Source of the DNA: Chitinophagaceae bacterium
GTDB lineage: Bacteria > Bacteroidota > Bacteroidia > Chitinophagales > Chitinophagaceae
Assembly: GCA_019752295.1 (NCBI GenBank)
Contig: JAIEMK010000007.1
Location: 1 to 64,000, forward strand
Reading direction: 5' to 3'
DNA length: 64,000 bases
Within the stretch, counting starts at the first letter, position 1, and every line of letters begins with the position of its first letter. Shown here one piece after another: positions 20,128-41,102 of this stretch. The notes beneath the pieces are model-generated. The model saw nothing but the letters and a program-made list of their open reading frames with translations. It searched no databases and had not been told where the DNA came from. The position numbers were made by a program, and so were the translations under genes.

Positions 20128-20145
20128 ATACCCTTCAGTGGGTAT
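20128..20145. promoter_or_regulatory. operator palindrome, site 4 (ATACCC-ttcagt-GGGTAT)
   Basis: Perfect half sites with the right half starting 27 nt before TATTTTTA (20167-20174, one base off TAnnTTTG). Controls the unit from 20223 to 25365. The roughly 270-nt gap before it, from 19946, has no coding signal; a distant GCTGCTA/TAGCAGC dyad spans 19947-20017. Confidence 0.75.
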
Positions 20146-20222
20146 AAATTAAATATTTTATATAGATATTTTTAGGAATCATTATTTATGTTATTACTAT
20201 TTCTTAATTCAACCTCATATTG

Positions 20223-20867
20223 ATGAAAAAAATTATTTTATTTACAGCAATTGTATTTTGTACTTTAATGCTGAATGCACAAGTACATATAAATACCTAT
20301 ATTGTTGGAGGAGTTTCATTACCCAACTTCAAGTACAGTTATGATAAAGTTGCTTCACCTAGAAGTATTTACCAGGGTTATACTGGAGGTTTATTATTTA
20401 ATACCGGATTTATGGGAGGAACAAAGAATGAAATGATGTTGAATTTTGGTTTGAATTATTTACAAGCTGGGGCTATTGACAAAGCACCAGTATCTGGTTC
20501 GGTTGTTGAATCAAAAATTAGACTTAATTATATACAAACAGAATTTTTCATTTCACTCCCTATCTCAATTTTTGAACTCTGTGGTGGGTTTCATTATAAT
20601 TATGCTATAAACGGAAAAAAAATAATTAACAAAAATGATGGAACAAGTGCCACAACTAGTATAAAATTTGGCAGTGAAAATGGCGTTGATGATGCTCACA
20701 GAGGTGATTTGGGACTGAGTTTGAAAGCGGTTGTAAACGTGTCTAAATTTAAATTTATAGTAGGTTATAATAAAGGACTTTTTGGATTGTCGGCAAATGC
20801 ATTAGAAGATGTATATAATAAAACATACACCGTTAGTTTGGCATATCCACTTAGTAAGAAAAAATAG
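20223..20867 (+). CDS. outer-membrane beta-barrel protein (porin-like)
   Basis: 214 residues from ATG 20223 (an in-frame TTG lies just before). Signal peptide MKKIILFTAIVFCTLMLNAQ, then paired beta strands with repeated Gly-aromatic turns (FNTGFMGGTKNEMMLNFGLNYLQ, FFISLPISIFELCGG) and a closing strand (KTYTVSLAYPLSKKK). It resembles small OmpA/W-type or PorT-like barrels of Bacteroidota (outer membrane beta-barrel family). It is the first gene of the site 4 unit. No ligand recognised. Confidence 0.65.
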   Translation: MKKIILFTAIVFCTLMLNAQVHINTYIVGGVSLPNFKYSYDKVASPRSIYQGYTGGLLFNTGFMGGTKNEMMLNFGLNYLQAGAIDKAPVSGSVVESKIRLNYIQTEFFISLPISIFELCGGFHYNYAINGKKIINKNDGTSATTSIKFGSENGVDDAHRGDLGLSLKAVVNVSKFKFIVGYNKGLFGLSANALEDVYNKTYTVSLAYPLSKKK

Positions 20868-20912
20868 TTATTAGAAAGCCATATTCTGATGTATCTTTTA
20901 ACTAAATGATTG

Positions 20913-22010: not shown

Positions 22011-22012
22011 AG

Positions 22013-23566: not shown

Positions 23567-23580
23567 AAAATCATAAACAA

Positions 23581-25365: not shown

Positions 25366-25412
25366 TTCTGATATGTTTTCCTGACTCTATTAATACTGTT
25401 ATTGTTTTATAA

Positions 25413-25430
25413 ATACCCTACAGTAGGTAT
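25413..25430. promoter_or_regulatory. operator palindrome, site 5 (ATACCC-tacagt-AGGTAT)
   Basis: One mismatch in the right half. At the 27-nt spacing lies AACGTTTA (25452-25459), a weaker -7 match, 13 nt before the next ATG. Probably controls the single gene at 25472. Confidence 0.55.
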
Positions 25431-25471
25431 GCAAATATTCCTATATCTGAAAACGTTTATTGTAAAAAAAA

Positions 25472-26185
25472 ATGAAAAAAATCGCTTTCGTACTATTTTT
25501 GATGCCTACATTTTTATTATCTTTTGCACAAAAAAGTAAAAAGAAAACTATTGAAGGAACGGCCTTTCATATTGGAGTCTCTTATTCCAATCCAACCCAA
25601 GCCGAATTTGGAAAATATTTTTCTGTAATTAGTGATTCATTAAAATTGAAGGCATCTATTGTACCTAAGACATTATATGGACTTTCCATGGCGCTAACTA
25701 TACGGAATGAACAATGGGAATTTGAAGCAGGCGGCGGTTTTAGTTCAGGCTTTAAAGTTAAAAGTAGTAATGCTGCGAACACCAGTTCTGCTTCTTTAAG
25801 TACAAGTACAATTGATATTCATTTTGGTTTTTCCAATTATATTGCTGGCCCTTTATTCATTGGACTTGATCTGGATGCAATAAGTAATTCTGGAAAATTT
25901 GAAGTAGTGGATAATTCTGGATCCCTTTTTGAATCAACACCAGAAAGCCACAACCCATTTAAGGGTTATGTTTTTTCTGTAAAACCAAAAGCAGGTTTCT
26001 TTTTCCCTTTCAAGGCGGGAACTTATTCAGGAATTAAAATAAATGCCTTTTACGATTATGGGATATCAAAATATGAGTTTTACAGCAATGATATTTTCCA
26101 ATCAAGATTAAAGAATTATAAAGGAGCAACTAAATCTTCATTTAGTGGATTTGGTGCACAGCTTGTTTTAGTATTTGGGATGTAA
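25472..26185 (+). CDS. outer-membrane beta-barrel protein of unknown function
   Basis: 237 residues with a signal peptide ending LLSFAQKS. Alternating beta strands of an 8-10 strand barrel follow (FHIGVSYSNPTQAEFGKYF, TIDIHFGFSNYIAGPLFIGLDLDA, GVFFPFKAG-type turns) and the chain ends in a hydrophobic strand (GFGAQLVLVFGM). It is similar in layout, not in sequence detail, to the barrel at 20223. A strong symmetric terminator follows, overlapping the convergent gene. No ligand can be assigned. Confidence 0.6.
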   Translation: MKKIAFVLFLMPTFLLSFAQKSKKKTIEGTAFHIGVSYSNPTQAEFGKYFSVISDSLKLKASIVPKTLYGLSMALTIRNEQWEFEAGGGFSSGFKVKSSNAANTSSASLSTSTIDIHFGFSNYIAGPLFIGLDLDAISNSGKFEVVDNSGSLFESTPESHNPFKGYVFSVKPKAGFFFPFKAGTYSGIKINAFYDYGISKYEFYSNDIFQSRLKNYKGATKSSFSGFGAQLVLVFGM

Positions 26186-26216
26186 TTTTTGAGTAACAAA
26201 TAAACCGTAGTTAATT

Positions 26217-26258
26217 ATTTTATATTAAAGCAATTATTTAATTGCTTTAATATAAAAT
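26217..26258. terminator. 42-bp perfect palindrome, bidirectional terminator
   Basis: Twenty-bp perfect arms around a 2-nt centre. The left arm starts ATTTTATATTAAAGC and the right arm mirrors it. The palindrome covers the last codons and stop of the minus-strand gene at 26234, so coding and terminator overlap. It separates convergent units. Confidence 0.8.
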
Positions 26259-26665
26259 TGTTTTGATGCTAATAATTTTTTTTCGGGACTTGAGTAAACA
26301 CTAATTGTATAGTTACTACTATAAACAAGGTCTTTCAATTTAATATAAAAATCTTTCCAGCTTGGATTGATACTTCTGCCCTTCATGGTTTGTTGATCTA
26401 CTACAACACTATCTCTAGTAGTGATTACATTTATCTGATCATACTGTATCTTGTCATAACGATGTAAAAAACCAACAATCCTAATCTCATTTTCTTTAAT
26501 GGTAAATCCATTTGTATTGTTAAATGAAGCATTAGTTTTATTAGTACCAATCATTACTTCATAGAGTGAGTCCTGTGCTTGTTGACTATTGCTTCTCTTT
26601 CCTAATTGTGCATTTGTAAATGATGAAATGCTCATTAAGGCGAGTATAAAGATTACTTTTTTCAT
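26234..26665 (-). CDS. small secreted protein of unknown function
   Basis: 143 residues with a signal peptide (FILALMSISSFTNAQ). The mature protein is a short beta-rich domain (GFTIKENEIRIVGFLHRYDKIQYDQINVITTRDS) followed by a Fn3-like strand (YTISVYSSPEKKLLASKQFYIK). It is downstream of the 26685 gene, 19 nt after its stop, and belongs to the site 6 unit. No family recognised. Confidence 0.5.
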   Translation of the reverse strand: MKKVIFILALMSISSFTNAQLGKRSNSQQAQDSLYEVMIGTNKTNASFNNTNGFTIKENEIRIVGFLHRYDKIQYDQINVITTRDSVVVDQQTMKGRSINPSWKDFYIKLKDLVYSSNYTISVYSSPEKKLLASKQFYIKAIK

Positions 26666-26684
26666 ATTTGAACATTTTTGATTA

Positions 26685-27617
26685 TTAAAACTGTCTACTA
26701 TCTGCGATACAAATCTTGTTTCTAAATACCCAACATTTAAGAATTAAGCCATCAGACAATTTGAATTCCCATTTTAATGGTAGCTCAGCAGAAACATCAT
26801 TTGGCGTATGATACATTTGTTTTGCCACTTCTAAAGCTTTTGCCTCATCTCGATATTCTACAATGAACTCATCAACCGTTTTGTCTGGAAGCATCATACA
26901 GGTTATTTGTTTAATTGTACCTGTGCTGAAATTTTCAATAAGATTATTATCGTATGCATCTTTGGGCATTTGCATTTTAGGCCTAAGCTTTTTTATAGCA
27001 TCTTGATTCATGCCAATATACAAATTTTGAATTTCAGTAGGTAAATACTTTTTTTGCAAATTGGGGTTAATGTTAATTTCAGTGTTGAAGTGGATGATCT
27101 TTCCTGCAAAGGCTTGAACATGGCTATCCATAGAAAAATCTTCTTGAGTTTTTGCAAGTAAATGAATTTCAAATGCCCCAGCACTTTCTTTATAGATCAA
27201 AAAGCTCAGGCAAAAAGGGAATTCTGCCCCAAATGTTTTATCAGTTTCAAATAATGCAAAGTAAGCTGAAGTTCCACCAAAATCTGTTTGAACATCCTCC
27301 TTGCTAGATGGTAACACTTTGATACTACCAGGGACTTTGCTTTTTGCATTATTCAAAAACAATGCTGTTGCATAGGTTTCAACTGCGTCGGGTTTTACAT
27401 TTTTCATGTCAGGCCTAAAAGTATAGCGAACTTGTACCTGATTATCGTTTGAGACAAAGATATAGTCGTAAAGTTTTGATTGTTCCTTAGTTGGAACTAC
27501 TTTTTTGAAACCTTCAAGAAGGGATTCATTGAATATAAATTCATGTGTGTCTTTCGTTTGCGCAGAAATAAAAAGACTCAAAAGCAGACTGAATAGTAAC
27601 CCGAATTGTTTTTTCAT
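26685..27617 (-). CDS. secreted protein of unknown function
   Basis: 310 residues with a signal peptide (LFSLLLSLFISAQT). The mature protein is alpha-beta, with a helix-rich start (FNESLLEGFKKVVPTKEQSKLYDYIF) and a region (LPTEIQNLYIGMNQDAIKKLRPKMQMPKDAYDNN) that looks like a BLIP-type or stress-sensor repeat, but the match is weak. A tail with FKLSDGLILKCWVFRNKICIADS closes it. First gene of the site 6 unit on the minus strand. No catalytic residues noticed. Confidence 0.5.
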   Translation of the reverse strand: MKKQFGLLFSLLLSLFISAQTKDTHEFIFNESLLEGFKKVVPTKEQSKLYDYIFVSNDNQVQVRYTFRPDMKNVKPDAVETYATALFLNNAKSKVPGSIKVLPSSKEDVQTDFGGTSAYFALFETDKTFGAEFPFCLSFLIYKESAGAFEIHLLAKTQEDFSMDSHVQAFAGKIIHFNTEININPNLQKKYLPTEIQNLYIGMNQDAIKKLRPKMQMPKDAYDNNLIENFSTGTIKQITCMMLPDKTVDEFIVEYRDEAKALEVAKQMYHTPNDVSAELPLKWEFKLSDGLILKCWVFRNKICIADSRQF

Positions 27618-27713: not shown

Positions 27714-29558
27714 TTAACAAGGGATATTAATAGAAACTACAGTTTCGCCGCCTATTTTTGAATCCCATTCGATGGTGCCTTTCAGGAATAATACCCGTGA
27801 TTCAATGTTTTTAAGCCCGATTCCATCTTTGGTTTTAACCTCTTTGAATTCAAACCCCTTGCCATTGTCTTCAATAAGAACGCCGATATTTGACTGTTCC
27901 TTAATTAGTGTTATATATAATTCGCTTGCTTCTGCATGCTTTATTACGTTTGATACAGCTTCCTGCACAATCCGATATAGAATTGTTTCAATTTTACCAT
28001 CAATTCTTTCATTTAAACCTTCTGTATATAGGTTAATACTTATTGATTGATTATGCAGTTCGTCTAAGAATTTCCGAACCGCATTTACTAATCCTGCTTT
28101 AATCAATGCATTTGGCATCATATTGTGTGATATAAAACGTACTTCTTTACAACTATCATCAACCATTGCAATTGCTTTCTGGTATTGATTCTTTTGTTCA
28201 ATATTTAAAAAGGGAATTTCATCCTCGATAGCAGTTAAGTTAATTTTTGCAACACTCATCATTTGGCCGATGCCGTCATGCAAATCTGACGCTATTCTTA
28301 TCCTTTCATTTTCCTCCGCTTCTAATACCGCCCTTGTTGCCATTTCCTCCGATTTTCTCAGCATTATTTGCATTTCAGCATTTTTCTTTAATTGATTTCT
28401 ATGGTAAAATGAATAAAATAACAAACTAACTAACACGGATAGAATCGATAGACCGATAATCCAATAGTTGCGTTTACTAATTTCAAAATTCTGTTCGTTG
28501 ATCTTTTTCTCTTTTTTCTCAGTTTCATATTTTGTTTCCATTTCGGCTAATTGCTTTGTAGCGGTGCTATTGAAAATGGAATCTTTTATTATTTGCTTTA
28601 AATCGGAGTAAAGAAATGCAGCATTATAGTCACCTTTTTTTCTATAAATCGTTGCTAATTGATCGTAACTAAACAGGAGAATATCCTTTAACCCATATGT
28701 TTTGGAAAGACCTATGGAAAGTTTATAGTAGATAATGGAAGAATCTAATTTTCCCTTATTCTGGTAGGCTTCAGCAATGTTACAACGGCTTAATGCAATT
28801 ACTTTTTTGTCATTCAGTTTCAGTCCAATAATTTCTGATTGTCGATAATATATTAATGCACTATCTATTTTATTTAAATAAAACAGGTAGGCGCCTGCAT
28901 TTGAAAAGCCAATAGCAGATGTTGCGTTCTGATAGAGTTTTAAATTGATATTGTTTGCAATTGACTGCTCATTGAATGCATTTCTATAGTCAGCATTATT
29001 TGCGTAGTAAATGGAAAGGTTTAACTTTATTAGACCAAGCTCATTTTCGAAGCCATTTTTTAAAGCAATCTCTTCGGCTTCCTTTAAAAATCGATATTCT
29101 AATTTATTCTTTTTCAAATAGCCATAAGCCTGAGCAATATTATTTTTAGAAAGCATTATTCCACGCTGATCATTCATTTTCTCCCAGATAGTAAGGCTTT
29201 CTAAATAAAACTGTAATGCATTGGCGTAATTACCTTTTAAGGCTTGAATAGCGCCAAGATTGGTATTACTTCTAGCCTCAGATGAAGGAGCTTTCATGAT
29301 TTTACTTTTTTTGAGCGCTATTTCAGAATAGGTAAAAGCTTGGTCTGGAATATCGTTAATGTGTTTGAAACAAAAATTAATCAGTCGATTCAACGATACT
29401 GTATCTGTTAACGAATTAGAGTAAATTTGTAAACTATCTTTATATTCCTGCGCCTCAATTTGATTAATTGAGAGGGATATTAAAAATAGTATCCTGATAG
29501 TTTTAATAAGCCATTTGAGGTTCGTTCTATTAAAATGTGTTAAACACTTTTTTTTCAT
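27714..29558 (-). CDS. sensor histidine kinase with TPR sensor domain (NarL/DesK type)
   Basis: 614 residues. About six to seven TPRs fill residues 40-330 (EARSNTNLGAIQALKGNYANALQFYLE, IIYYKLSIGLSKTYGLK), a transmembrane helix follows (YWIIGLSILSVLVSLLFYSFYH, about 366-387), then a coiled stretch, a HisKA_3 dimerisation region with the phosphorylated H427 in SDLHDGIGQMMS, and an HATPase domain (LYRIVQEAVSNVIKHAEASE, then VLIEDNGKGFEF and DGIGLKNI). This kinase class pairs with LuxR/NarL-type response regulators, none of which is in the window. Second gene of the site 7 unit. The TPR part is probably exported and may sense exported proteins of this cassette; inference. Confidence 0.85.
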   Translation of the reverse strand: MKKKCLTHFNRTNLKWLIKTIRILFLISLSINQIEAQEYKDSLQIYSNSLTDTVSLNRLINFCFKHINDIPDQAFTYSEIALKKSKIMKAPSSEARSNTNLGAIQALKGNYANALQFYLESLTIWEKMNDQRGIMLSKNNIAQAYGYLKKNKLEYRFLKEAEEIALKNGFENELGLIKLNLSIYYANNADYRNAFNEQSIANNINLKLYQNATSAIGFSNAGAYLFYLNKIDSALIYYRQSEIIGLKLNDKKVIALSRCNIAEAYQNKGKLDSSIIYYKLSIGLSKTYGLKDILLFSYDQLATIYRKKGDYNAAFLYSDLKQIIKDSIFNSTATKQLAEMETKYETEKKEKKINEQNFEISKRNYWIIGLSILSVLVSLLFYSFYHRNQLKKNAEMQIMLRKSEEMATRAVLEAEENERIRIASDLHDGIGQMMSVAKINLTAIEDEIPFLNIEQKNQYQKAIAMVDDSCKEVRFISHNMMPNALIKAGLVNAVRKFLDELHNQSISINLYTEGLNERIDGKIETILYRIVQEAVSNVIKHAEASELYITLIKEQSNIGVLIEDNGKGFEFKEVKTKDGIGLKNIESRVLFLKGTIEWDSKIGGETVVSINIPC

Positions 29559-30467: not shown

Positions 30468-33182
30468 TCATAGTCCCGATTCTATTTTTCTTTTCAGCGA
30501 CTCAATTGCATTATTCAAATTGTATTCACGGTTATTTAAGATACTGTTTGTGTTGTGTTCTAAAAGCCGAAGATCTTCCCCATTGTTTTTTGAAGTATAC
30601 AAATCAATTCGGTAAGTATTGTCTTGCATTCGTTCTGCCTTTAGCTCGAACTTTCTGTATTTGAAAAAATTCTGATGATTGTAAATGAAATCATTCCGCT
30701 CTTTATCAACATCAACAACATAGTTATCATTCACTTTGAAATAGGAGACAAACCTTTTTTCTCCCAAGTCTTTTTCACATTTCATATCGTACTGACTAAA
30801 CGCAAACTGAGCCCCATTTCCTTTTCCTACGCCATATTTGCATTTTGAACTTTCGTGCAGATATGAATTAGGGACATACTCAAAAAATGGTCGCTCATCT
30901 GTGTCCATTGATTTGCCATCATTTCTTGCTTCAGGAACAGTATATTGAGACTCACAAGTTGCGGTAAGTTCACCCGCATCAGTGCTAGTAAAACTAATAC
31001 TACCGCTAAATGATAAAGAATAATTCACAGTTTTTTTGCTCCCATAACTATTGTATGTAATGGATTTTTCATAGATCCTTTGCAAGATCCAATTATGGCT
31101 TGAAAGTAATTTTTCATATTTGCCTGCTTTAAATAATGCATACGCTTGATCTGAAGCATCTCTGATCTGTTTTTTAGTACTTGCTAATTCCGCCAATAAA
31201 GAATCCATCTGAGGTTTGAATTGTATCCTCCTTTTTTCAATGGCTAATTCTTTGTCTTTTACTGCTTTCAACTTAGCAAGTTCAGTCTGTTCCTTGGCTT
31301 GCGCAACTGCTTTCTTACCTACCATTACAGTCATTTCTATTTCTTTAGCTGGCACAAATCCGCCTGTAACAATGGCCTTGTATTTAGCTTTGTCATTTAG
31401 TGTATATAGCTTGTCGGGTTCATCCATTTTATACAAACAAATGGAAGCATAATTCCCTTCCGAGGAATGCTTAAACCCAAGCGAATAGGCCAGATATTTT
31501 CCATTTGGGTCTACGTCAAAATTATAATAGTAAACAGGGTTTGATTTACCATTATATAAGCTTGCCATATTCAAATACTTGCCCTGACTATAAAACACTT
31601 TAAGGTCAATCGTTTCTGCAGAATCCTTGCTGGATATGGAATACAGATAATGTCGGTTCTGATTATCCGTTCCCAGATACCGGTAACCAGTTAGTTGATT
31701 ATAGGCTAAGTCGGCTAAGGTATTTCGAGCCATATCATACAAATCTTTTGAAGTAACGGTATTTAGATTGTAATGGATATAGCCATTGTTTTTATAGTAA
31801 GCTGACTTGGCATATAATACCAGGGATTGATTACTAAATGTCCACTGATCAGTACCCCCTTCATAATATTTCTCTGTGAACATTTTTTCTAACGCATGGG
31901 TATTCAAGTCGAAACTAAATATGCTGCAATCTCCAAAAGTATAGTTTGGATCTTTTTCAAAACGTATGAAGAAGAACTTTTTGGCCTTTTGTCTATAACA
32001 GAATTTGTAATCAACTGAGCTAAGGGTATTGTAATCCTTTAGTCCTTGAGTAAGTCGGAAAGAGTCCAAGACTACATTATTGCTGTTGTAAAAAAAGACC
32101 CATCGATTATTCATGATCACAGATGTGTCTGAATTGATCCAGATCTTTAAACTTTTATTTGCATCAACGCTATATACATTATGAGGCAAAAAAGCGGCAT
32201 AAGCTTCTCTAGCTTTTCGATTGTTTTTTAATTCGCTAAAAGGGATTTCTTCTTTTTTTTCCTTTTTTTCGAGATCCCAAACATGGTAAATACTTTGATT
32301 AGGGTCATAAAGAAACAGTTCATTTCCTGAATCACTAAAGACCAAGGATTTGTTGGTCGATGAATTACTGCCACTGTCTTTTAAACTGATATTGCCATAA
32401 TCTTTTATACCGGCATATCGTTTCACATTTGGATTGAAAAGTTTTGGAAGCCAAAGTTCGTCTTCTTTGTCTTGTTGGATCTGACGATTTTTTACAGTAT
32501 TGACTTCATTTTCGGTTTTAGTAATTTGTTCCTTAACATTTTTTATTTTATTGGTTAATGCTTCGCTTATATTGACATTAGAGTAAAATTCATATAACTT
32601 TAAAGCCAATGCATAATTCCCTTTTTTCACATAAATATCTCCTAACCTTTCAGCCATAGCATAATTGTGTGAAACTCCTGAACCGTGTACAGGATATCCA
32701 GTGCAGTTAAATTTATAATCACTTTGATCTTGAACCCAGATAAATGCCTTTAAAGCAAGATCAATATTGGATGCCACCAATTCTCGATCTCCCAATTCCA
32801 TTGTATAATGCAAAAACTTATCTAATATGTCTGGCTTATCATCTTTAAACCCCATTGGGTCGCCCTTAAACGAAAGCGTAGCAAGATCTACTGCCTCATA
32901 TAGTTTTCCCATTTTATACAAGGGTTCCACCCTAAAATTGAGCCAGCAAAGCCAGGGGAATTTCTTTTTGAAATTTTCATAATCATCAATATACGATGAA
33001 TATTTTCCTTCAGGATAGGTACTAGATTCAACAGCCAGTTTATAAGCTTCCTCGTATTTTCCTTTATTCATTAACCGTTCCCATTTTGGGTATTCTGGAC
33101 AACCTAGGCTGGTTTGGCCATTGACTAAAAATGGTAATAATAAGATTACTAGAATTGGGAAACAGATTTTCAATTGTTTCAT
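30468..33182 (-). CDS. large secreted TPR / propeller-like protein of unknown function
   Basis: 904 residues starting at MKQLKICF (33182). Starting here gives a clean signal peptide (LVILLLPFLVNGQT); a longer reading from 33275 adds an unlikely tail. Order: TPR-like N-terminal part (KYEEAYKLAVESS; GDIYVKKGNYALALKLYEF, about residues 20-215), a seven-bladed-propeller-like region with WD-like blades (LVFSDSGNELFLYDPNQSIYHVWD; YLAYSLGFKHSSEG), a coiled coil (EQTELAKLKAVKDKELAIEKRRI, about 620-670), then a beta-rich tail. No palindrome lies just upstream; the nearest is the relic at 33446. Function unknown; a scaffold is inferred. Confidence 0.65.
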   Translation of the reverse strand: MKQLKICFPILVILLLPFLVNGQTSLGCPEYPKWERLMNKGKYEEAYKLAVESSTYPEGKYSSYIDDYENFKKKFPWLCWLNFRVEPLYKMGKLYEAVDLATLSFKGDPMGFKDDKPDILDKFLHYTMELGDRELVASNIDLALKAFIWVQDQSDYKFNCTGYPVHGSGVSHNYAMAERLGDIYVKKGNYALALKLYEFYSNVNISEALTNKIKNVKEQITKTENEVNTVKNRQIQQDKEDELWLPKLFNPNVKRYAGIKDYGNISLKDSGSNSSTNKSLVFSDSGNELFLYDPNQSIYHVWDLEKKEKKEEIPFSELKNNRKAREAYAAFLPHNVYSVDANKSLKIWINSDTSVIMNNRWVFFYNSNNVVLDSFRLTQGLKDYNTLSSVDYKFCYRQKAKKFFFIRFEKDPNYTFGDCSIFSFDLNTHALEKMFTEKYYEGGTDQWTFSNQSLVLYAKSAYYKNNGYIHYNLNTVTSKDLYDMARNTLADLAYNQLTGYRYLGTDNQNRHYLYSISSKDSAETIDLKVFYSQGKYLNMASLYNGKSNPVYYYNFDVDPNGKYLAYSLGFKHSSEGNYASICLYKMDEPDKLYTLNDKAKYKAIVTGGFVPAKEIEMTVMVGKKAVAQAKEQTELAKLKAVKDKELAIEKRRIQFKPQMDSLLAELASTKKQIRDASDQAYALFKAGKYEKLLSSHNWILQRIYEKSITYNSYGSKKTVNYSLSFSGSISFTSTDAGELTATCESQYTVPEARNDGKSMDTDERPFFEYVPNSYLHESSKCKYGVGKGNGAQFAFSQYDMKCEKDLGEKRFVSYFKVNDNYVVDVDKERNDFIYNHQNFFKYRKFELKAERMQDNTYRIDLYTSKNNGEDLRLLEHNTNSILNNREYNLNNAIESLKRKIESGL

Positions 33183-33243
33183 CTTAAGGTTGATTTGTGA
33201 TGGATAAATGGTTTTGATTAACCTAGTTACAGAAAGTGATGGT

Positions 33244-33415
33244 ATGAAATGAGCCATAACAAAATTTGTTACCAACCGAAATGTTTGTTAGCGAATCCCG
33301 AGCACTCGGGACCAAAATCAATTAATAAACACATGAAATAAGCATAACGAAAATTTGATACCAACCGAAATGTTTGTTAGCGAATTACATGTAACCAAAA
33401 TCAAATAATAAACAC
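33244..33415 (+). repeat. two tandem copies of an 83-89 bp repeat
   Basis: Unit 1 is 33244-33332 (89 nt) and unit 2 is 33333-33415 (83 nt); a third ATGAAAATAGC opens at 33416. Each starts ATGAAAT(G/A)AGC, then ATAAC.AAAATTTG, TACCAACCGAAATG, TTTGTTAGCGAAT and ends ATCAAATAATAAACAC or similar. Unit 1 carries the palindrome TCCCGAGCACTCGGGA where unit 2 has TTACATGTAA. Related copies lie at 11138 and 14619. Confidence 0.75.
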
Positions 33416-33445: not shown

Positions 33446-33463
33446 CTACCCTAAGGAGGGTAT
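33446..33463. promoter_or_regulatory. operator palindrome, site 8 (CTACCC-taagga-GGGTAT), relic
   Basis: One mismatch in the left half. It precedes the decayed sigma-factor fragment as site 1 precedes the intact gene, but no -7 box is seen at 27 nt. Probably left over from the duplicated promoter. Confidence 0.55.
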
Positions 33464-33484
33464 TTTTTAAATTGCTTAGCAATC

Positions 33485-33745
33485 ATCGATAGAAGATGCA
33501 CTTTAATAAATAAAAATGGGACATGTCATCAATGCTCCGAGCTTAATGAATTTTTTAACCCAAAGAAAAAAATTCAAAAGAACATTCTTATTCAATCAAA
33601 TCATTCGGGTAATGAAGGGCTTTATCCAATAACGGCAGCATTGGTAAAATCCATTATCTTCTAATGACGCTGATCTGGAAGATGGCATCATGCAAGTTTT
33701 CCGATTCGCAATAGCCGAAAATAGTTTTCGACCGTTTTTCTTTTC
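33485..33745 (+). pseudogene. decayed 3' part of an ECF sigma-factor gene
   Basis: About 80 codons match the last third of the 13083 gene: DRRC.LINKNGTCHQC is kept, then NPKKKIQ and IQSNHSGNEGLYPI. A deletion of about 8 nt removes the SIDP codons and shifts the frame, giving an early stop. The homology runs past the stop into the region corresponding to 13866-13885 (TAGTTT.CGACCGTTTT.CTTTTCC). The first two thirds of the gene are gone. Confidence 0.8.
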
Positions 33746-33817
33746 CTATTACTAACAGGAAGTTTTGTGGAAGGCCTGATTATTTCAAATTTTTTTGACG
33801 AAAAAAAAGTATTTTAA
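33746..33817 (+). pseudogene. decayed 3' end of the four-TM gene
   Basis: Matches the last 24 codons or so of the 13898 gene (LLLTGSFVEGLIISNFFDEKK versus the intact copy) and keeps its stop position. It follows the sigma-factor fragment with most of the gene deleted between them. Confidence 0.75.
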
Positions 33818-33819
33818 GC

Positions 33820-33858
33820 TAGAGCCATTTCTGCGATAACGCCCTTATGTCAACTAAC
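33820..33858 (-). pseudogene. short relic of a higA-type antitoxin
   Basis: On the minus strand the frame reads H-K-GVIAEMAL with a stop codon before it, like VNGHMGVSAEMALRLGK in the HigA at 35074. DNA identity to 35205-35240 is clear (AGAGCCATTTCTGC...). Only about 13 codons remain. Confidence 0.5.
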
Positions 33859-33986
33859 TAACGGCTATTGCAGTATTATGCTCTTTACTGCTGCTATATT
33901 TATTGTGGTTTATTTGTTTAACTTTTTCAAAAATATAATTAATGGTTCTATTATTTGTGCGTATATTTTCAGTATACTCTTAGTGT

Positions 33987-34979
33987 ATGAAAAATGTAAA
34001 AATGTTTTTATTGGCAGCAATGCTAGTGTTTTCAAGTTACAGTTTTGCACAATATGTAGATAAAGAAAGGTTTATAAAAATGTCGAAACAATCAGATTTC
34101 GTACCCCTTTTACAGGGGAAATGGGAGAATATAAATAATAATTATTTTAAAGCAAACGATACTTTATACGAACAATATTTTGGTGGCCTTATTAATAAAA
34201 TAGCACTTGCGGATATTGATTTTGGAACTACTATGATTAAAAAAGTATATGGCTTTAAAACAGATACCATTTATCCATATTCAATATTATTTATTAGCCC
34301 CCCCCAAAATAAGAAGGTTGTTAGTTGGTTTGATCACGATCATATTGAAATAAAATTTCCTGACCAGGCATTAGCCGAGCAGGCATTAGCAGTTTTAAAA
34401 CCAAAATCTAATGCAGGATTTTCGGCCGGCAATTCATCAAATCAAAATTCAGAACAATTACCCGACCCGGCAAGATTATGTACAAACACTGGTAAGTTTA
34501 TTAACGATCTTAGAACAAATAATCTTAAATATTATTTAGGAAGTTTTATTTCGTCGGGCATGGGATTTAATTTTTATAAATCTACCATTTCATTTCCCAA
34601 TTCTTTAGAAACTATCATTGTAGATACAAGTGCTTTGCAGCCTAATTATAGAAGAGCAGAAATATTAATGAAGAGCGAAACTGTATCGAACAAAAATGTA
34701 AGCACAAATATGCAAGCTTTGTACGATCATATTAACATGGTGTATGCAAAATGCCTTGGCGGTAAAAATGGATTTGAAACAATTAACAGAGATAATGACA
34801 AATACAGTAACAGTAAATTGCAAACTGATTATACTCGATTTTTACAAAATAATTCTACTGGCCTTTTTTCAAATTTGCAAACAAAAAGTGGATTAATTGT
34901 TCGTGTAAAAATTAAGCAAACTAGCCAATCGACAGGTATCTATACTAATAAATTATACATTTTTATTGAAGAGCAGTAA
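33987..34979 (+). CDS. exported protein of unknown function
   Basis: 330 residues with a signal peptide (LLAAMLVFSSYSFAQY). Two loosely similar parts are separated by a linker with a run of polar residues (SNAGFSAGNSSNQNSEQLPD, about 147-166). The second part begins ARLCTNTGKFINDLRTNN. No known motif; a single cysteine pair may form a disulphide. It lies outside the operator-controlled units and no palindrome precedes it. A hairpin terminator follows at 35032. Confidence 0.55.
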   Translation: MKNVKMFLLAAMLVFSSYSFAQYVDKERFIKMSKQSDFVPLLQGKWENINNNYFKANDTLYEQYFGGLINKIALADIDFGTTMIKKVYGFKTDTIYPYSILFISPPQNKKVVSWFDHDHIEIKFPDQALAEQALAVLKPKSNAGFSAGNSSNQNSEQLPDPARLCTNTGKFINDLRTNNLKYYLGSFISSGMGFNFYKSTISFPNSLETIIVDTSALQPNYRRAEILMKSETVSNKNVSTNMQALYDHINMVYAKCLGGKNGFETINRDNDKYSNSKLQTDYTRFLQNNSTGLFSNLQTKSGLIVRVKIKQTSQSTGIYTNKLYIFIEEQ

Positions 34980-35031
34980 ATTTTTCGAATACCAAATATA
35001 GTAGAACCAAACTTTCGGTAAGAATTACAGC

Positions 35032-35054
35032 TTATGATACCATGTGTATCATAA
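35032..35054. terminator. hairpin between exported-protein gene and higA
   Basis: Perfect 9-bp arms TTATGATAC / GTATCATAA with a 5-nt loop (CATGT), between convergent genes. Probably a shared terminator. Confidence 0.55.
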
Positions 35055-35073
35055 ACAAACTGCATCGAACTAG

Positions 35074-35373
35074 TTATAGTATACTCCCCCGAAAGGATAA
35101 AACCTTAGCCACGGTTATTTTAGTGCCAGCCTGCCATAGATCATAGTTGCGTTGTAGGTTGAGCCAAAGTTCAGGGGTAGTATCAAAAGCTTTTCCCAGA
35201 CGTAGAGCCATTTCTGCACTAACTCCCATATGGCCATTAACCAATTGAGAGACCGTCTTTCGGGCAACACCTAAATTATCAGCCAATTGAGTATTGTTAA
35301 CCCCAAGTGGGTTTAGGTACATCTCCTTCAGTATTTCTCCCGGATGAACCGGGGGCATTCCTTGTTTTAACAT
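35074..35373 (-). CDS. higA: HigA-family antitoxin
   Basis: 99 residues with an XRE-type helix-turn-helix (NTQLADNLGVARKTVSQLVNG, about residues 26-46) and the HigA-specific tail with AEMALRLGKAFDTTPELWLNLQRNYDLWQA. It follows the toxin gene by 18 nt in the usual HigBA order, toxin first. It should bind the operator at 35678 and neutralise HigB. A short relic of a second higA lies at 33820. The pair looks complete. Confidence 0.9.
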   Translation of the reverse strand: MLKQGMPPVHPGEILKEMYLNPLGVNNTQLADNLGVARKTVSQLVNGHMGVSAEMALRLGKAFDTTPELWLNLQRNYDLWQAGTKITVAKVLSFRGSIL

Positions 35374-35391
35374 AAAAACTGATTTTCTTTT

Positions 35392-35670
35392 TTAATGATA
35401 ATCTAAAAAATCCACTAGATGAACATTGCCATTCTCGAATTTGAAAATGATCCGATAATTGCCGAAAACCGTTATTGACCAAAATCCCTTTAGTTCTCCT
35501 TTGAGAGGATGCAGGCCTGATCCCGGATAGTTCATATCTTCTACCTTTTCTGTTGCATCTAACAGTATCAACAGGTTTCTGATCTTCTTTACCTGCTGAG
35601 CAGGAAGCTTCGACATATCGTTTTTTGTCCAAAGCAACCGAAGTCCCCTGTGCTGAATACTCACAATCAT
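35392..35670 (-). CDS. higB: HigB-family toxin (RelE/ParE superfamily)
   Basis: 92 residues from ATG 35670 (a TTG at 35676 is the longest start). The HigB pattern is clear: MIVSIQHRGLRLLWTK at the start, RNLLILLDATEKVEDM, then PLKGELKGFWSITVFGNYRI and VHLVDFLDYH at the end. HigB cuts mRNA on ribosomes in known systems; basic and histidine residues needed for that fold are present (R-K stretch; H-D ending). It is first of a two-gene unit with HigA. Confidence 0.9.
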   Translation of the reverse strand: MIVSIQHRGLRLLWTKNDMSKLPAQQVKKIRNLLILLDATEKVEDMNYPGSGLHPLKGELKGFWSITVFGNYRIIFKFENGNVHLVDFLDYH

Positions 35671-35677
35671 ACACAAA

Positions 35678-35698
35678 TGTAACCTGTTACGTTACAGG
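35678..35698. promoter_or_regulatory. HigA operator-like overlapping dyads
   Basis: TGTAAC (35678-35683) pairs with GTTACA (35691-35696), and the 16-mer CCTGTTACGTTACAGG (35683-35698) is a near-perfect palindrome differing at two central positions. It lies just before the higB start, the expected HigA autorepression site. Confidence 0.6.
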
Positions 35699-35904
35699 GT
35701 GCAAATTTATTTTTATTAGTAGACGGTAAAATGGGGGTTATTTCATGAACACTTCATCTTCTTGATTTCTTCAGGATGAATCAGGCGGTGCTAATTAATT
35801 TTGTTGTTGTGATTTGCTTTCAAATTATTTCTACCTTAGATCTTTCGCTAGGGACTTCACAATTTAATACAGAGCGTAGACAATGTATAACACTAACGGG
35901 CTAA

Positions 35905-36024
35905 AAAAATTTTAAAAAAATATTCTACCCATATCAAGCCTTAAGTAGCGTAGAAGAAATAACAACCAACATTTTTCAACTGGAAGCTGAAACAGATGGA
36001 TTATTAGAAGAAAATGCAGCATAA
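35905..36024 (+). pseudogene. possible C-terminal tail of a type I modification subunit (HsdM)
   Basis: A stop-bounded frame with no ATG reads YPYQALSSVEEI, then IFQLEAETDGLLEEN, a tail I associate with HsdM-type N-6 adenine methylases. It ends where the DinD-like gene starts, as in intact loci. The rest of the 35699-35904 stretch shows nothing coding. Confidence 0.35.
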
Positions 36025-36025
36025 T

Positions 36026-36328
36026 ATGGCAAAAAAAATAAATAAAAAAAGCCTCTCGGTTTTCGAGCAAATATGCCAAACTGATGAAAATGGAAATGAA
36101 TTTTGGTTGGCTCGTCAGTTAGCAAAAGCATTGGATTATACTGATTTTAGAAACTTTACAGGCGTAATAGAAAAAGCAGCAGAGGCCTGTGAAAAGAGCG
36201 GAAATAAAATCAATGAACACATCGTTGAAACCAACGAGGTGTTAGTGGTCGGGCAAGGTGCAAAGCATACTTACCCCAGTTATAAGCTTAGCCGTTATGC
36301 TTGTTACCTTATTGTTATAGCCACATAA
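36026..36328 (+). pseudogene. truncated DinD / BRO-family gene
   Basis: 100 codons (a second ATG lies 12 nt upstream). It matches the N-terminal BRO-type domain of DNA-damage-inducible protein D: FEQICQTDENGNEFW, ARQLAKALDYTDFRNF, then SRYACYLI, after which homology stops and the frame ends 4 codons later. Full DinD is about 280 residues, so the gene is broken. Such genes often sit inside type I restriction loci, in line with the tail before it. The stretch to 36483 has nothing recognisable. Confidence 0.7.
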
Positions 36329-36483
36329 CATGCCAAACATAAATGACAAGTAGAATTCCAGACTTATACGAGATTGCCGGGGAGGTGCTACAATTTAAGA
36401 ACATTATTCTCAAATTCCAATAAAATCGAATATACAAAAATTCCTAAATGCAGTAAAAGCAAAAATTAGTTTAATTTCGCAGC

Positions 36484-36777
36484 ATGTTCAGTACCGCTCA
36501 AATAGTAGATATTTTAAAGGCAAAGAAACCGGATTTGGTGAAAAGGTATCCAATTTCCGAACTAGGCTTATTTGGTTCCTATGCCCGTACAGATTTTAAT
36601 GCTATGAGCGATATTGATATTTTAGTTGATTTTGATAAAAATATTGATGCTTTTACTTTTATAAGACTTGCTCACGAATTAGAGGATTTGTTTCTGCATA
36701 AAATTGATTTGGTTTCAAGAAAGGGTATAAAACCGCAGTGGCTTTTATTTGTTGAAAAAAACTTAATCCATGTCTGA
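36484..36777 (+). CDS. MNT-type nucleotidyltransferase (antitoxin of a HEPN-MNT pair)
   Basis: 97 residues. The minimal nucleotidyltransferase signature is clear: GS at 31-32 in GLFGSYARTD, D43 and D45 in SDIDILVDF, and D75 in HKIDLVS. In HEPN-MNT toxin-antitoxin pairs the MNT protein adenylylates the HEPN RNase to disable it. The gene overlaps the start of a HEPN-like frame by 8 nt, the usual arrangement. The partner is cut, so this copy is an antitoxin without a working toxin in the window. Confidence 0.85.
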   Translation: MFSTAQIVDILKAKKPDLVKRYPISELGLFGSYARTDFNAMSDIDILVDFDKNIDAFTFIRLAHELEDLFLHKIDLVSRKGIKPQWLLFVEKNLIHV

Positions 36778-36799
36778 ACGGAGCATTAGACTTTTATTA
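36770..36799 (+). pseudogene. 5' fragment of a HEPN toxin gene
   Basis: MSERSIRLLL matches the first ten residues of HEPN/DUF86 toxins, then the sequence runs into the 3' end of the amylosucrase gene on the other strand. The break lies at about 36797, at that gene's stop codon. Confidence 0.6.
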
Positions 36800-38743
36800 C
36801 ACCACTTCCATTACACAAAATCCATAAGCCGGAATGATTAGATATTCCTGATCGGCGCCAATGGTATAGCTTGTGTTGTTCCAGTGATCGTATAATTTAT
36901 TTGATTTTGCGCCATGCGTTTTAAATGCATACCAAGTAACATAAGATGCCTGTGCGCTGAAATTAAATAAACAATATACTTGCTGCTCCTTAAAGCTGCG
37001 GATAAAACCTGCTACATGAATATTATAGGGGGGTAACCATATCAGATTTTTGTAATCGCCAAATGCAGCCAATTTTTTTCGGAGCGCAATCATCTTCTTT
37101 GTGGCATTAAAAATCTTTGCTTCAATAGTTTCCGGTGCTGCAATTCTTTGCTCTTTTTCCCAGTGAATAATGGGCCGATGCATCCACCTGTTATCGTAGC
37201 TTTTACCCTCGTCTTGCAAATAAGAATAATCGTTTGTGTAACCCATTTCATCGCCATAAAACAAAATGGGCAGCCCGCCAATAAACATGGTTTGTGCCTG
37301 CATTAAACAAATCTTTTTGATAGAAGTTTCAATTGCCTCCTCATTGTTTCTGCGAATGGCTTTTTCGAGCCCGCATAAGGATGCCAGCGACCCACTAATT
37401 CTGGCATCTTGCGTTTTAGGGTTTACCGAAAACAAAGCACCGGCGGCAGGTGAATCGGGTATGGCACCTGAATAATATTCTTTTAGATACCTGCGATGTT
37501 CGTAGGCATTAAATCCTGCAACGGCAATCATACTATCATCATATCCCAAACCAATATCATCGTGACATCTCGTATAAGTAATCCAGGAACAGCCATAAGG
37601 CTTCTGCAAAATTTCGTGTTGGGCTGCCAGCATCACCCTGGTGTCGCCTGTTGCTAACGCATCCCATTGCAAAGCCATTTGTGTGGCGTTATAAGCAAAG
37701 TCGCATTCTTTTGCAGTAAAGCGATCGGTACCAAAATATTTCATGATCTCTTTTGGTGCAACAATGGCTTCGCCCAATAATGCCATGCCCGGCGCAGCAA
37801 CTTGAACACACTGTTTAATCAACCTTAATAAAGTATGTGCCTGCGGCAGATTCTGACAACTGGTGCCCAATTGCTTCCATATAAATGCCGGTGCGTCGAT
37901 ACGTAAAACATCTACTCCCAGATTGGCGTAAAAAAGAATGGTGTTGAGCATTGTAACGAATACCTCAGGGTTGGTATAATTCAAGTCCCACTGATATTCA
38001 TGAAATACACTCATCACCCATTTATTACATTCAGGCACATACGAAAAACTTCCGGGAGCAGATTCCGGAAAAATTTCGGGCATGGTTTCTTCAAACCAAT
38101 TTGGCAGACTCCTGTCATCGTACATGTAAAAATAATCCTGGTATTTTTTATCACCCTGCTTTGCGAGTTCTGCCCATTCATGTCGGAACGAAGTATGGTT
38201 CAATACCATATCAATCATCAGAAACATGCCTTCTTCATTCATTTTTTTCTGAACAGATTTCAAATCTTCCAGCGATCCGAATCGTGGATCCAGTTTTCTG
38301 AAATTCGAAACGGCGTATCCTCCATCGCTCTCTCCCTCAGGGCTTTCGAATAGGGGCATAAAGTGTAAAAAATTTACGCCCAGTGTTTTAAAATAATCCA
38401 GTTTACTTTCCAGTGTTTTTAAGTTGCCACAAAAACGATCTACGTATAAACTCATTCCAACCAGTTGGTTGCTCAAAAACCAATTTCCGGATTCTTCTTT
38501 TTCTTCGTCCTTTAATTTTAATGCCTCATCTCTTAGCGAATAGGCATTTGTAATGGTTTGCAGTAGTTCTGTAAAAGCTTTTGCGCTGTTAGGATGACTG
38601 CTATATAAAGACTGGTAGAGGTCGGCGATTTCGCTGGAGTTGGCAAGGAAGCGACTATAGAAAAGATTGTCTTTCCCTGCAACATCAATATGATTTTCTA
38701 AAATAGAAAGCGAAATCTGTTGGTGTAATTGATATTGATACAC
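36797..38743 (-). CDS. amylosucrase-type GH13 enzyme
   Basis: 648 residues, the length typical of amylosucrases (about 630-650). Catalytic residues by alignment to GH13: nucleophile D283 in DVLRIDAPAF, acid/base E325 in LLGEAIV, and stabilising D395 in RCHDDIG. The offsets to the known amylosucrase residues (D286, E328, D393) fit. The enzyme would split sucrose and move glucose to a glucan or, if it acts like a sucrose hydrolase, release glucose and fructose. No signal peptide. It is the last gene of a minus-strand set with fructokinase (24 nt upstream) and the transporter. A HEPN fragment abuts its 3' end. Confidence 0.85.
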   Translation of the reverse strand: MYQYQLHQQISLSILENHIDVAGKDNLFYSRFLANSSEIADLYQSLYSSHPNSAKAFTELLQTITNAYSLRDEALKLKDEEKEESGNWFLSNQLVGMSLYVDRFCGNLKTLESKLDYFKTLGVNFLHFMPLFESPEGESDGGYAVSNFRKLDPRFGSLEDLKSVQKKMNEEGMFLMIDMVLNHTSFRHEWAELAKQGDKKYQDYFYMYDDRSLPNWFEETMPEIFPESAPGSFSYVPECNKWVMSVFHEYQWDLNYTNPEVFVTMLNTILFYANLGVDVLRIDAPAFIWKQLGTSCQNLPQAHTLLRLIKQCVQVAAPGMALLGEAIVAPKEIMKYFGTDRFTAKECDFAYNATQMALQWDALATGDTRVMLAAQHEILQKPYGCSWITYTRCHDDIGLGYDDSMIAVAGFNAYEHRRYLKEYYSGAIPDSPAAGALFSVNPKTQDARISGSLASLCGLEKAIRRNNEEAIETSIKKICLMQAQTMFIGGLPILFYGDEMGYTNDYSYLQDEGKSYDNRWMHRPIIHWEKEQRIAAPETIEAKIFNATKKMIALRKKLAAFGDYKNLIWLPPYNIHVAGFIRSFKEQQVYCLFNFSAQASYVTWYAFKTHGAKSNKLYDHWNNTSYTIGADQEYLIIPAYGFCVMEVV

Positions 38744-38767
38744 TGGTAACTATTTTTATAAAGAAAG

Positions 38768-39718
38768 TTATAAGAAGATCTGATTATTTAAATGTTTGAA
38801 AGCTTCCATGGCACCCATATATTCGCAGGTTCGTGCACCTGCTTTATTTGCATTCTTTACAATGAGTTCCCAATCGCTCTTACTCGTTTTTAAAATGGCG
38901 TCCCGATTTTTATTGCAAAGCTGATATAAAACTGCGCCAACAAAAGCATCGCCCGCACCTGTTGTGTCAACCGGTTTAATAGGGATACTGGCTATTGTGC
39001 TATTTGCCTGATGGTATCCCAACAAAGTTCCATCCTTACCCAATGTAATAGTATAAACAGCCGAAGTTTCGTTATTTAAAACTGTTATGGCATCTTGTAA
39101 GGTAGCTGTTCTGGTAATCAACATGGCCTCTTCATCGCTGAGTTTAAAATAGTGACAGCTTTTTAAAAAATACCAGGATTGCAGAATAAATGTTTCTGTA
39201 TTATTTTGAAAAAGAAGCTGCCTGTAATTGGGGTCAAAGCTGATGAATATTTTTTGTTGCTTAGCCCTTTCTAATAAACTGATATATGCTTTTTGTAGTG
39301 GCCCCGGCAGGAACGCGGTTGCAGATCCAAAATGGATGATGGATATATCGGTTAAATCAATTGCATTCACTTCCTCTTCACTGAGCGCTCCATCTGCACC
39401 TCTGTTAAAAACAAAATCTCTTTCTCCATCTTCCATCAACGAAACAAAGGCAAAACTGGTAAAATTGTTTTCATCCTCCAGCATATATTTTGTGGATACG
39501 CCAAATTCTTTCATCACCTGAATGAGTTGTTTTCCAAAGGGGTCGTTACCCACTTTTGCAGCAAGTTCTACTTCAGCACCTAAGGCTGCAACTGCTGCTG
39601 CAACATTTGTGGGAGCTCCTCCGGGCTTTTTTAAAAAGTGCTGACCTTGGGTTAAACTACTGCCCTTGTCTGTGCAGATCATGTCGATAAGCGCTTCTCC
39701 GATGCATAAAATTTTCAT
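38768..39718 (-). CDS. PfkB-family fructokinase
   Basis: 316 residues. N-terminal MKILCIGEALIDMI and GGAPTNVAAAVAALG are the substrate-facing signature of PfkB sugar kinases; the catalytic DTTGAGDAF anion-hole loop follows near residue 250. Together with an amylosucrase-type enzyme and a sucrose-type transporter it should phosphorylate the fructose released from sucrose. Second gene of the set, 43 nt after the transporter. Specificity is inferred from context. Confidence 0.85.
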   Translation of the reverse strand: MKILCIGEALIDMICTDKGSSLTQGQHFLKKPGGAPTNVAAAVAALGAEVELAAKVGNDPFGKQLIQVMKEFGVSTKYMLEDENNFTSFAFVSLMEDGERDFVFNRGADGALSEEEVNAIDLTDISIIHFGSATAFLPGPLQKAYISLLERAKQQKIFISFDPNYRQLLFQNNTETFILQSWYFLKSCHYFKLSDEEAMLITRTATLQDAITVLNNETSAVYTITLGKDGTLLGYHQANSTIASIPIKPVDTTGAGDAFVGAVLYQLCNKNRDAILKTSKSDWELIVKNANKAGARTCEYMGAMEAFKHLNNQIFL

Positions 39719-39761
39719 ATGGTCTCCTTTTCTGAACTGAGTATTTTATAATTATTCAACA

Positions 39762-41102
39762 CTAATGCCCACCACCACTTACTACCACCACATCATCTGC
39801 AGGCATTACTTTTTTAATTCGCATAGTTACGGCACAAGCTATCAATAATAATATACCGCCAAAACTGATGGCTTTTCCGGGATCGTTATCCAGAAAATGA
39901 TTCAATACAAATCCAAAAGTAGTGGTTTGCAGTATCATGGGAATTACGATCATCATATTAATAATGCCCATATACACACCATATCTTTCTTTCGGAATAT
40001 CATTTACTACCATCAAATAAGGCACCCCCATCATGCTAGCCCAGGCAATTCCAAAGCCTGTCATTGGTACAAATAAAAAATACTGATTCTCGATAAGCGG
40101 GAAAACCAATAATCCCATACCCGCTAAAAACAAACAGGTTACATGCACATTTCTGGGACTATATTTTTTTGCCAGCACCACTAATACAAAAGCAGAAAGA
40201 AAAGTAATTACATTATACCATCCATTTACCAAACCTGCCCAGCCAACTGCTTCTTCATAAAGCTTCGGATTTTTTGAAGGAGATGTTTTCCATACCGACT
40301 GTGCAATACTTTTAGAGGCATTCTGCCAGTAGCAGAAGAGTGCATACCATTGAAATAAATATACCAATGCTAATTGCCACATTACTTTTGGCATGTGTTT
40401 GATGGCACTAAAGATTTCGATGAATGGTGCCATCACCGATTTATTACCGGCCTTCAGTACGGCCAACTCTTTATCGGTAGGAGGGATCTCGGGTGTTTTG
40501 GTGATCGACCATAATACAGATGAAATAGAACAAACCGATCCCAGAAAAAAGGATCCAAAAACCCAATAGGGTATCTGTCCGTGCATTTGTTTTAAAAAGC
40601 TAATTTTTTGAAATGCAAAGAGCGAAACATTGGCAAGTGTAATACCCAGACCTGTAAAGAAACTTTGTGTTAAAAAACCATTTGCGTGTTGCGATGGGGG
40701 AAGTTTATCGGCTATAAATGCGCGATAAGGTTCCATCGCCGTATTATTAGCTGCATCTAATACCCATAGCAAACCGCCAGCCATCCAAAGACTGCTACTG
40801 AAAGGATAGATGAACAAACAAAGACTGCAAAAGAGGGCCCCGATAAAAAAATAGGGTTTACGTCTGCCAAAGCGAGGATGCCATGTTTTATCGCTCAGTG
40901 CGCCAATAATGGGTTGTATCAGCAAACCCGTCATTGGTCCGGCAAGATTTAGAATCGGAATTTGATCGGGGCTTGCTCCCAAAAAATCATAAATAGGATT
41001 TACTGCGCTTTGTTGCAGACCGAAGCTATATTGGATTCCGAAGAAACCAACATTCATATTAATAATTTGAGTAAAACTTAAACGGGGTTTCGATATAGAC
41101 AT
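39762..41102 (-). CDS. MFS sugar transporter (sucrose-proton symporter type)
   Basis: 446 residues with about 12 transmembrane helices. The loop after helix 2 contains HPRFGRRKPYFF, the RxGRR(K/R)P signature of GPH-family sucrose carriers. The N-terminal NMNVGFFGIQYSFGLQQSAVNP is also typical. It should import sucrose with protons across the inner membrane. First gene of the minus-strand sucrose set, divergent from uxaB. A weak inverted repeat at 41190-41217 lies in the shared intergenic region. Confidence 0.85.
   Translation of the reverse strand: MSISKPRLSFTQIINMNVGFFGIQYSFGLQQSAVNPIYDFLGASPDQIPILNLAGPMTGLLIQPIIGALSDKTWHPRFGRRKPYFFIGALFCSLCLFIYPFSSSLWMAGGLLWVLDAANNTAMEPYRAFIADKLPPSQHANGFLTQSFFTGLGITLANVSLFAFQKISFLKQMHGQIPYWVFGSFFLGSVCSISSVLWSITKTPEIPPTDKELAVLKAGNKSVMAPFIEIFSAIKHMPKVMWQLALVYLFQWYALFCYWQNASKSIAQSVWKTSPSKNPKLYEEAVGWAGLVNGWYNVITFLSAFVLVVLAKKYSPRNVHVTCLFLAGMGLLVFPLIENQYFLFVPMTGFGIAWASMMGVPYLMVVNDIPKERYGVYMGIINMMIVIPMILQTTTFGFVLNHFLDNDPGKAISFGGILLLIACAVTMRIKKVMPADDVVVVSGGGH

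Follow-up and report, generated by a model that had tools for sequence, protein, structure and literature searches.

A probable pseudogene relic of a second ECF sigma factor and membrane protein module beside a probably older gene cassette in a Chitinophagaceae genome

Within a window of 64,000 nucleotides (the whole stretch of DNA analyzed here, from a Chitinophagaceae bacterium), the segment at 33480-33816 is very likely a pseudogene relic: it preserves the 3' part of the second of two copies of a module that was acquired horizontally and arrived later than the gene cassette beside it. As we picture it, this module (an ECF sigma factor, its probable promoter and the gene for a four-TM, or 4TM, membrane protein) would have entered the lineage after the cassette was in place, and two copies of it would have come to sit to the left and to the right of the cassette, the second through local duplication or through a second acquisition from a near relative, with duplication slightly favored. 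Both copies would then have been translated and under selection for long, before the right one was broken by deletions and left able to make neither protein. The mode of duplication and the order of the deletions are those that we infer.

A preliminary description of this DNA had reported that the last third of the sigma gene and the last codons of its neighbor recur at 33.5 kb with deletions and a frameshift, in direct orientation to an intact pair at 13.0-14.4 kb (13083-14362), and a repeat search within the window confirmed each of these points. Three collinear blocks in direct orientation pair 33480-33655 with 13612-13787 (84% identity, register 19868), 33649-33746 with 13789-13886 (87%, register 19860) and 33744-33816 with 14289-14361 (90%, register 19455); the place given earlier (33485-33817) was thus right, and its exact limits are replaced by 33480-33816. 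When 33480-33820 was searched against the assembled genome (3.70 Mb in 91 contigs, assembly 98.5% complete), it matched itself and two places in the intact locus only (E 5e-78 and 5e-22), which excludes chance as the source of the homology, and the whole assembled genome held no third copy of the sigma-4TM stretch.

The first 530 bp or so of the sigma gene, coding for about 177 residues, are missing from the relic. What is left at 33480-33746 (+) runs from about residue 178 to the end of the gene and into the spacer, where the -35 half of the sigma promoter is retained and the -10 is deleted, and the last codons of the 4TM gene follow at 33744-33816 (+). Between the first two blocks, 8 nt are missing between two ATCCATT direct repeats, a deletion of the kind made by slippage, which shifts the sigma frame into a stop. 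A second gap, of 405 nt, begins in the sigma-4TM spacer and reaches into the 4TM gene, with a TCC microhomology at both ends, and at the sigma stop one base has been lost and one gained. From GGYFLNCLAIIDRRC onwards, the sigma frame stays open until the stop that follows the 8-nt deletion, and this open stretch contains no in-frame ATG, GTG or TTG. Homology to an intact gene is therefore combined with disabling changes (deletions, a frameshift and no start), as in a pseudogene; the slippage and microhomology deletions, the frameshift and the lost start are all shared with ordinary bacterial pseudogene relics, from which 33480-33816 differs in nothing notable except a long coexistence under selection. 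It is, in short, a well-preserved relic of the ordinary kind with a clear history. To its left, 17 nt separate the homologous part from the palindrome at 33447-33462; these (TTTAAATTGCTTA) were also aligned with sigma codons near 13300, a likeness too weak to count.

The two copies are close relatives. A tree built on the 78 C-terminal residues common to 81 family members and the relic joins intact copy and relic as sisters (support 0.97), and a full-length tree places the intact sigma in a clade (support 0.995) with those of locus L059, from a Cyclobacteriaceae MAG (66% identical), and L060, from Sunxiuqinia indica (62%). Differences in the sigma part of the copies fall on codon positions one, two and three 11, 5 and 19 times out of 35 (P = 0.0085 for at least 19 in position three under equal chance); block 2 was counted only up to about 13857, since the stop region beyond is misaligned, and with that region included the numbers become 12, 6 and 22. 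Over 101 codons the proportion of synonymous differences (pS) is 0.287 and dN/dS is 0.29, with a dS of 0.36 that carries a wide error as it rests on only 64.5 synonymous sites. The relic has substitutions at residues kept in 79-81 of 81 family members (F179I, A184T, R228T, G242D), and at S196 (75/81) and V232 (72/81) the family residue survives in the relic and has been replaced in the intact copy. The relic is therefore not derived from the present intact copy, and the dN/dS of about 0.29, together with each copy keeping family residues that the other has lost, argues that both worked long before one died. Near-invariant residues have changed in the relic, yet its dN/dS against the intact copy is 0.29 overall, a mix that may reflect an early phase of constraint and a later one of relaxation. 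One could argue from the persistence of the CHQC stretch and the -35 half that the relic still has a use, be it as an RNA, a small protein or a sigma-promoter decoy; given the absent start, the frameshift, the deleted -10 and the four changed near-invariant residues, we find such a role scarcely credible.

How the second copy arrived is less firmly settled than its death. The preliminary description had offered, as one option, a duplication of the sigma locus followed by the death of one copy; the death stands, preceded by a long selected coexistence, and the duplication is supported, with a second acquisition as the alternative. Under that alternative, the module would have been acquired twice, from related donors on separate occasions, with toxin-antitoxin debris at both landing spots and no duplication here, an account that agrees on the dead copy and differs only on the arrival of the second one. 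A DNA difference of 10-16% that bears the mark of selection is what two acquisitions would allow, and the homology of the copies stops at the 4TM stop codon, beyond which the two sides carry different material. On the left, an antitoxin fragment at 14363-14512 (+) follows directly behind the stop (DUF2683, profile 21-66 of 66, Pfam 7.8e-15), a family that we take to be one of antitoxins; on the right, a weak and only possible HigA-like fragment of 42 nt lies at 33820-33861 (-), 81% like 35203-35244 in the HigA-like gene at 35074-35373 (Pfam HTH_3; the HigA name was given by eye). Beyond the palindrome and the stop codon, the window repeat search found no repeat of at least 25 nt shared by the flanks of the copies, which counts against a simple segmental duplication, as that usually leaves one. 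The flank pattern would fit insertion of a unit with a fixed right end as well as it fits duplication, and for this reason the two-acquisition account keeps some standing. Against it, the tree groups the two copies together and apart from all 80 relatives, and the best 80 of 231 loci included no donor of either variant, so that we consider it possible, if rather doubtful. Among the genomes searched, no species had two intact copies or a single copy in the cassette.

The intact sigma gene at 13083-13865 (+) encodes an ECF sigma factor of 260 aa with regions 2 and 4 (Pfam Sigma70_r2, 1.3e-14, and Sigma70_r4_2, 2.6e-9, both above cut-off) and without regions 1.1 and 3, the arrangement expected of the ECF group. 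It scores 76.9 bits against the NCBIfam superfamily model sigma70-ECF (TIGR02937, cut-off 42.9), the only one above its cut-off among the 25 models listed of 91. Its C-terminal extension carries a CHQC motif and is a candidate sensor that would activate the sigma factor; no further Pfam family was found in the protein, extension included, at E 0.01. As far as titles and the beginnings of abstracts describe them, ECF41, ECF52 and ECF56 likewise have regions 2 and 4 plus an extra C-terminal part, and the extension seen here is unlike that of ECF56 in having the CHQC motif and no SnoaL domain (as named for ECF56), since no Pfam domain appears in it at E 0.01. Behind the sigma gene, the 4TM protein has an ORF of 154 aa at 13898-14362 (+) and a weak resemblance to DUF6789 below cut-off. 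Its true start is more likely the ATG at 13916 than the ORF-listed 13898, as 13916 aligns with the starts in L059 and L060 and sits behind the predicted promoter; it also leaves room for a transcription start behind the -10.

This promoter is predicted at 13869-13897 (+), where CGACCGTTTT-N12-AGTCTAA (-35/-10) resembles a motif of the sigma family. To define the motif, CGACCGTTTT (up to 2 mismatches), a gap of 8-12 and CGTCAAA (up to 1 mismatch) were searched for within 1500 bp on either side of 80 sigma genes, on the sigma strand, which gave 44 matches, one each in 44 of the 80 loci, where 1.3 were expected from the rest of the loci. The pattern was chosen after seeing L059, L060, L083 and L097, and 40 matches remain without these. 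The gap is 12 in 43 of the 44, the exception (L111, gap 11) looking like chance, and in 41 of these 43 the motif precedes the sigma gene at a distance of about 390-1070 bp. A conserved putative target promoter thus lies near the gene in 44 of 80 loci, as in ECF groups, and CGAYCGTTTT-N12-CGTC is probably the promoter read by this sigma family. In the genome, CGAYCGTTTT-N13-GTC has a single exact site, at 13869, where the -10 reads AGTC, against CGTC in the family motif. GTC-type -10 elements are common among ECF promoters. Only this site stands out, as sites with up to one mismatch are fewer than in the reversed control (12 vs. 17); another, looser pattern gave 2 sites vs. 5 in the control. 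The genome of L059 has two exact sites, one of them in its sigma-4TM spacer, and that of L060 also has two, both outside the spacer, which has one mismatch.

The position of the motif suggests what the sigma factor may control. In the window, L059 and L060, it lies between the sigma gene and the 4TM gene, from which we infer that the sigma factor, once active, would read from 13869 and drive production of the 4TM protein. Sigma genes paired with a short-chain dehydrogenase (SDR) gene in Chitinophaga, Mucilaginibacter and relatives share the sigma family and the motif CGAYCGTTTT-N12-CGTC with the window, and differ in having the motif upstream of the sigma gene, whereas here it lies behind the sigma gene and before the 4TM gene. 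The gene behind the upstream motif encodes 267 aa in the five loci read, and the one tested was a short-chain dehydrogenase (Pfam 3e-31); in motif-bearing loci between L065 and L124, the sigma factors are 47-52% identical to that of the window. The titles and abstract beginnings of the ECF-group literature searched revealed no publication on this SDR-sigma group. The motif offers a concrete predicted target for the sigma family, of which 231 relatives were found.

The module has a patchy distribution. Some ECF sigma match was found in all of the 120 genomes compared (our own, 72 of the same genus and 47 of the same order), and a sigma factor at ortholog level outside the window only in G085 and G082 (45 and 44% identity, E 3e-68 and 9e-67, next best about 1e-14), that is, in none of the 72 congeners (best E 2e-10) and in 2 of the 47 other genomes of the order. 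A scan of genome contigs yielded the 231 relatives, the best 66% identical, of which the best 80 loci were kept, so that all counts over 80 loci refer to this best part. The 4TM protein occurs in 3 of 395 genomes of the phylum at E 1e-6, our own included, and its gene adjoins a sigma gene in L059 and L060 only (69-71% identical; tblastn on the 80 loci, some of them short). It is tempting to see in sigma factor, promoter and 4TM gene a compact, self-sufficient module that would travel between distant Bacteroidota, land at toxin-antitoxin debris, control only its own membrane protein and be repeatedly lost leaving relics, an idea that we hold to be rather improbable. Viral contigs gave 86 stretches matching the search pattern, none of which encodes a sigma relative. 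As separate observations, a 4TM homolog in L190 (G510:C3; 55-58%) is broken by stops and shifts, a relic elsewhere, with no sigma gene within its 3.3-kb locus, and an IS200-like transposase gene (L059 11557-12108; Y1_Tnp, 1.2e-6), by eye resembling the REP-associated kind, adjoins the sigma-4TM pair of the Cyclobacteriaceae MAG.

The cassette itself can be followed in two other genomes. On contig G035:C21, orthologs of genes 15566, 20223, 20913, 22013, 23581, 25472 and 26685 and of the kinase gene 27714 follow one another in the same order, flanked by the sugar genes 36797-39762 and by genes 3349-7476; next to these sugar genes, G027:C22 likewise has 15566, 20913, 27714 and a small number of others. 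Neither cassette neighborhood has a sigma or 4TM gene, and the sigma gene is also absent from both whole genomes, so that a comparison of gene order in related genomes, as suggested in the preliminary description, gave the cassette without the fragment in two of them and, in the genomes searched, no fragment unlinked to the cassette. This suggests that the sigma copies neither formed nor moved the cassette, which G035 and G027 hold (in part) without them, and that the module would have arrived after the cassette, rather than having been lost in both G035 and G027. In line with this, pS between the sigma copies (0.287) is below that of each of 15 gene pairs with G035 (0.38-0.86), as for an event younger than the cassette pairs, with the wide error that comes with 64.5 sites.

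Synonymous divergence along the window also tells where a moved block would end. Seven gene pairs with G035, from 15566 to 27617, have a lower pS (0.38-0.64), whereas pairs 27714, 36797, 38768, 39762, 3349, 6111 and 7476 are near saturation (0.71-0.85); the fifteenth pair, 26234, is at 0.86 and lies in the cassette span here, its partner elsewhere in G035. With G027, two core pairs are at 0.52 and 0.61, and the other twelve at 0.67-0.84. The inner block 15566-27617 was probably exchanged between lineages, strong codon bias being an alternative source of the low pS. Its right end lies at about 27.65 kb, where base identity changes in a modest step from 0.63-0.79 to 0.79-0.89, and its left end between 8.6 and 15.6 kb. 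No blastn match to 33820-36777 was found in the stretches of G035 and G027 compared. The preliminary description had proposed that the cassette was formed or moved by recombination between the sigma copies, with the relic at its right edge, and the direct orientation of the copies, one near each end of the cassette, would agree with its having been formed, moved or amplified in this way. Copies that mobilize a cassette should, however, coincide with the ends of the moved segment, and neither end of the inner block does so, the boundary not lying at 33.5 kb because 27714 and the genes rightward are near saturation. Nor is the cassette missing where the repeats are missing, as G035 and G027 carry it in part, in the same neighborhood, without sigma. 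We thus consider recombination between the copies highly improbable, and do not regard the relic as the edge of a mobile cassette. The nature of the repeat is settled, and the cassette is separated from the sigma pair, probably a later guest.

The palindromes TACCC-N6-GGGTA belong to a system of their own. The genome has 12 sites (3 for a reversed-pattern control), 7 of them at 13.0-33.5 kb and further ones on contigs C3, C27 and C43, with a one-mismatch eighth in the cassette at 25414. In a comparison of spacings, spacing 6 gave 7 exact matches, and spacing 7 gave 20, all with 2 mismatches (12.1 expected). Among 24 oriented palindrome sites, TANNTTTR follows exactly 22 nt on in 8 and 11 nt on in 2, and at no other offset from 0 to 44. 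We take a palindrome position near -42.5 to be the place of a class II activator. The Bacteroidetes -7 element reads TANNTTTG, its first T standing at -12 (PMC6847099). This puts the palindrome center near -42.5, and many of the palindromes are thus 16-bp inverted repeats at an activator position of housekeeping-type promoters, as operators would be. The full palindrome plus -7 pattern occurs in five of 120 genomes, G000 (8), G027 (9), G035 (6), G021 (1) and G089 (1), and is absent from the remaining 115; with the pattern reversed, a single match appeared, in G020.

The cassette would accordingly belong to a palindrome regulon common to the window and two other species (G027 and G035), possibly under the control of a two-component system. 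The cassette genes include a TPR histidine kinase (27714-29558), a HisKA_3 kinase is present, and a regulator of NarL type (Response_reg, GerE) is encoded about 1 kb from a palindrome on C43, at the cassette edge in G027 and about 48 kb from the cassette in G035. This regulator is found at E 1e-45 in 18 of 120 genomes, the best two after our own being G035 and G027, and may bind the palindromes; it is also present in nine further congeners, of which eight lack any exact pattern match, and this argues against a simple one-to-one link. NarL 7-2-7 sites are likewise 16-bp inverted repeats (PMC2718512), from which the palindromes differ in having the half-site TACCC with free inner positions.

The palindromes are probably not sites of the sigma factor. 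The one at 13039-13054 (unstranded) probably serves the divergent gene 12495-12959 (-), in whose direction TTAATTTG (5 of 6) stands at 22 nt; the G027 homolog of that gene (47%) has a correspondingly placed palindrome, again with a -7-type sequence, TAAATTTA, at 22 nt. Before the sigma gene, a perfect TATATTTG (6 of 6) stands at 11 nt on the + strand, so that this palindrome may also act on sigma. The palindrome at 33447-33462 (unstranded), reported earlier as the eighth, is present left of the relic, where by eye TATTTTCA lies 22 nt on along the minus strand (4 of 6); it may, weakly, be part of the promoter of 30468-33182 (-), and its membership in a sigma unit is unsupported. The tie between sigma factor and palindromes implied by the preliminary description is weak, and the palindrome is unlikely as a sigma target, as no exact one occurs in the 80 related sigma loci and the family has a promoter motif of its own. 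L126 has a longer TACC...GGTA repeat at -138 of its sigma gene and no exact palindrome; in L014 and L015, allowing up to 3 mismatches gave 13 and 18 matches, none exact, numbers reached by 19 and 10 of 200 shuffles. By eye, the sigma start of L014 (G085) is directly preceded by an inverted repeat whose TACCCCGGA arms enclose a 21-nt loop.

Two further features of the window were noted. Debris of toxin-antitoxin-like and similar genes lies at 14363-14590 and 33820-36777, with the DUF2683 fragment, the HTH_3 (HigA-like) gene, a Bro-N fragment and a nucleotidyltransferase. An intergenic repeat of about 82 nt is found at 11124-11206, 14612-14694, 33237-33319 and 33326-33408, with tandem pairs in places; folded as RNA from the + strand, one copy forms a hairpin (z -3.6) and another does so not clearly (z -1.6), and the repeat has 58 matches in the genome, some partial and some at contig ends.
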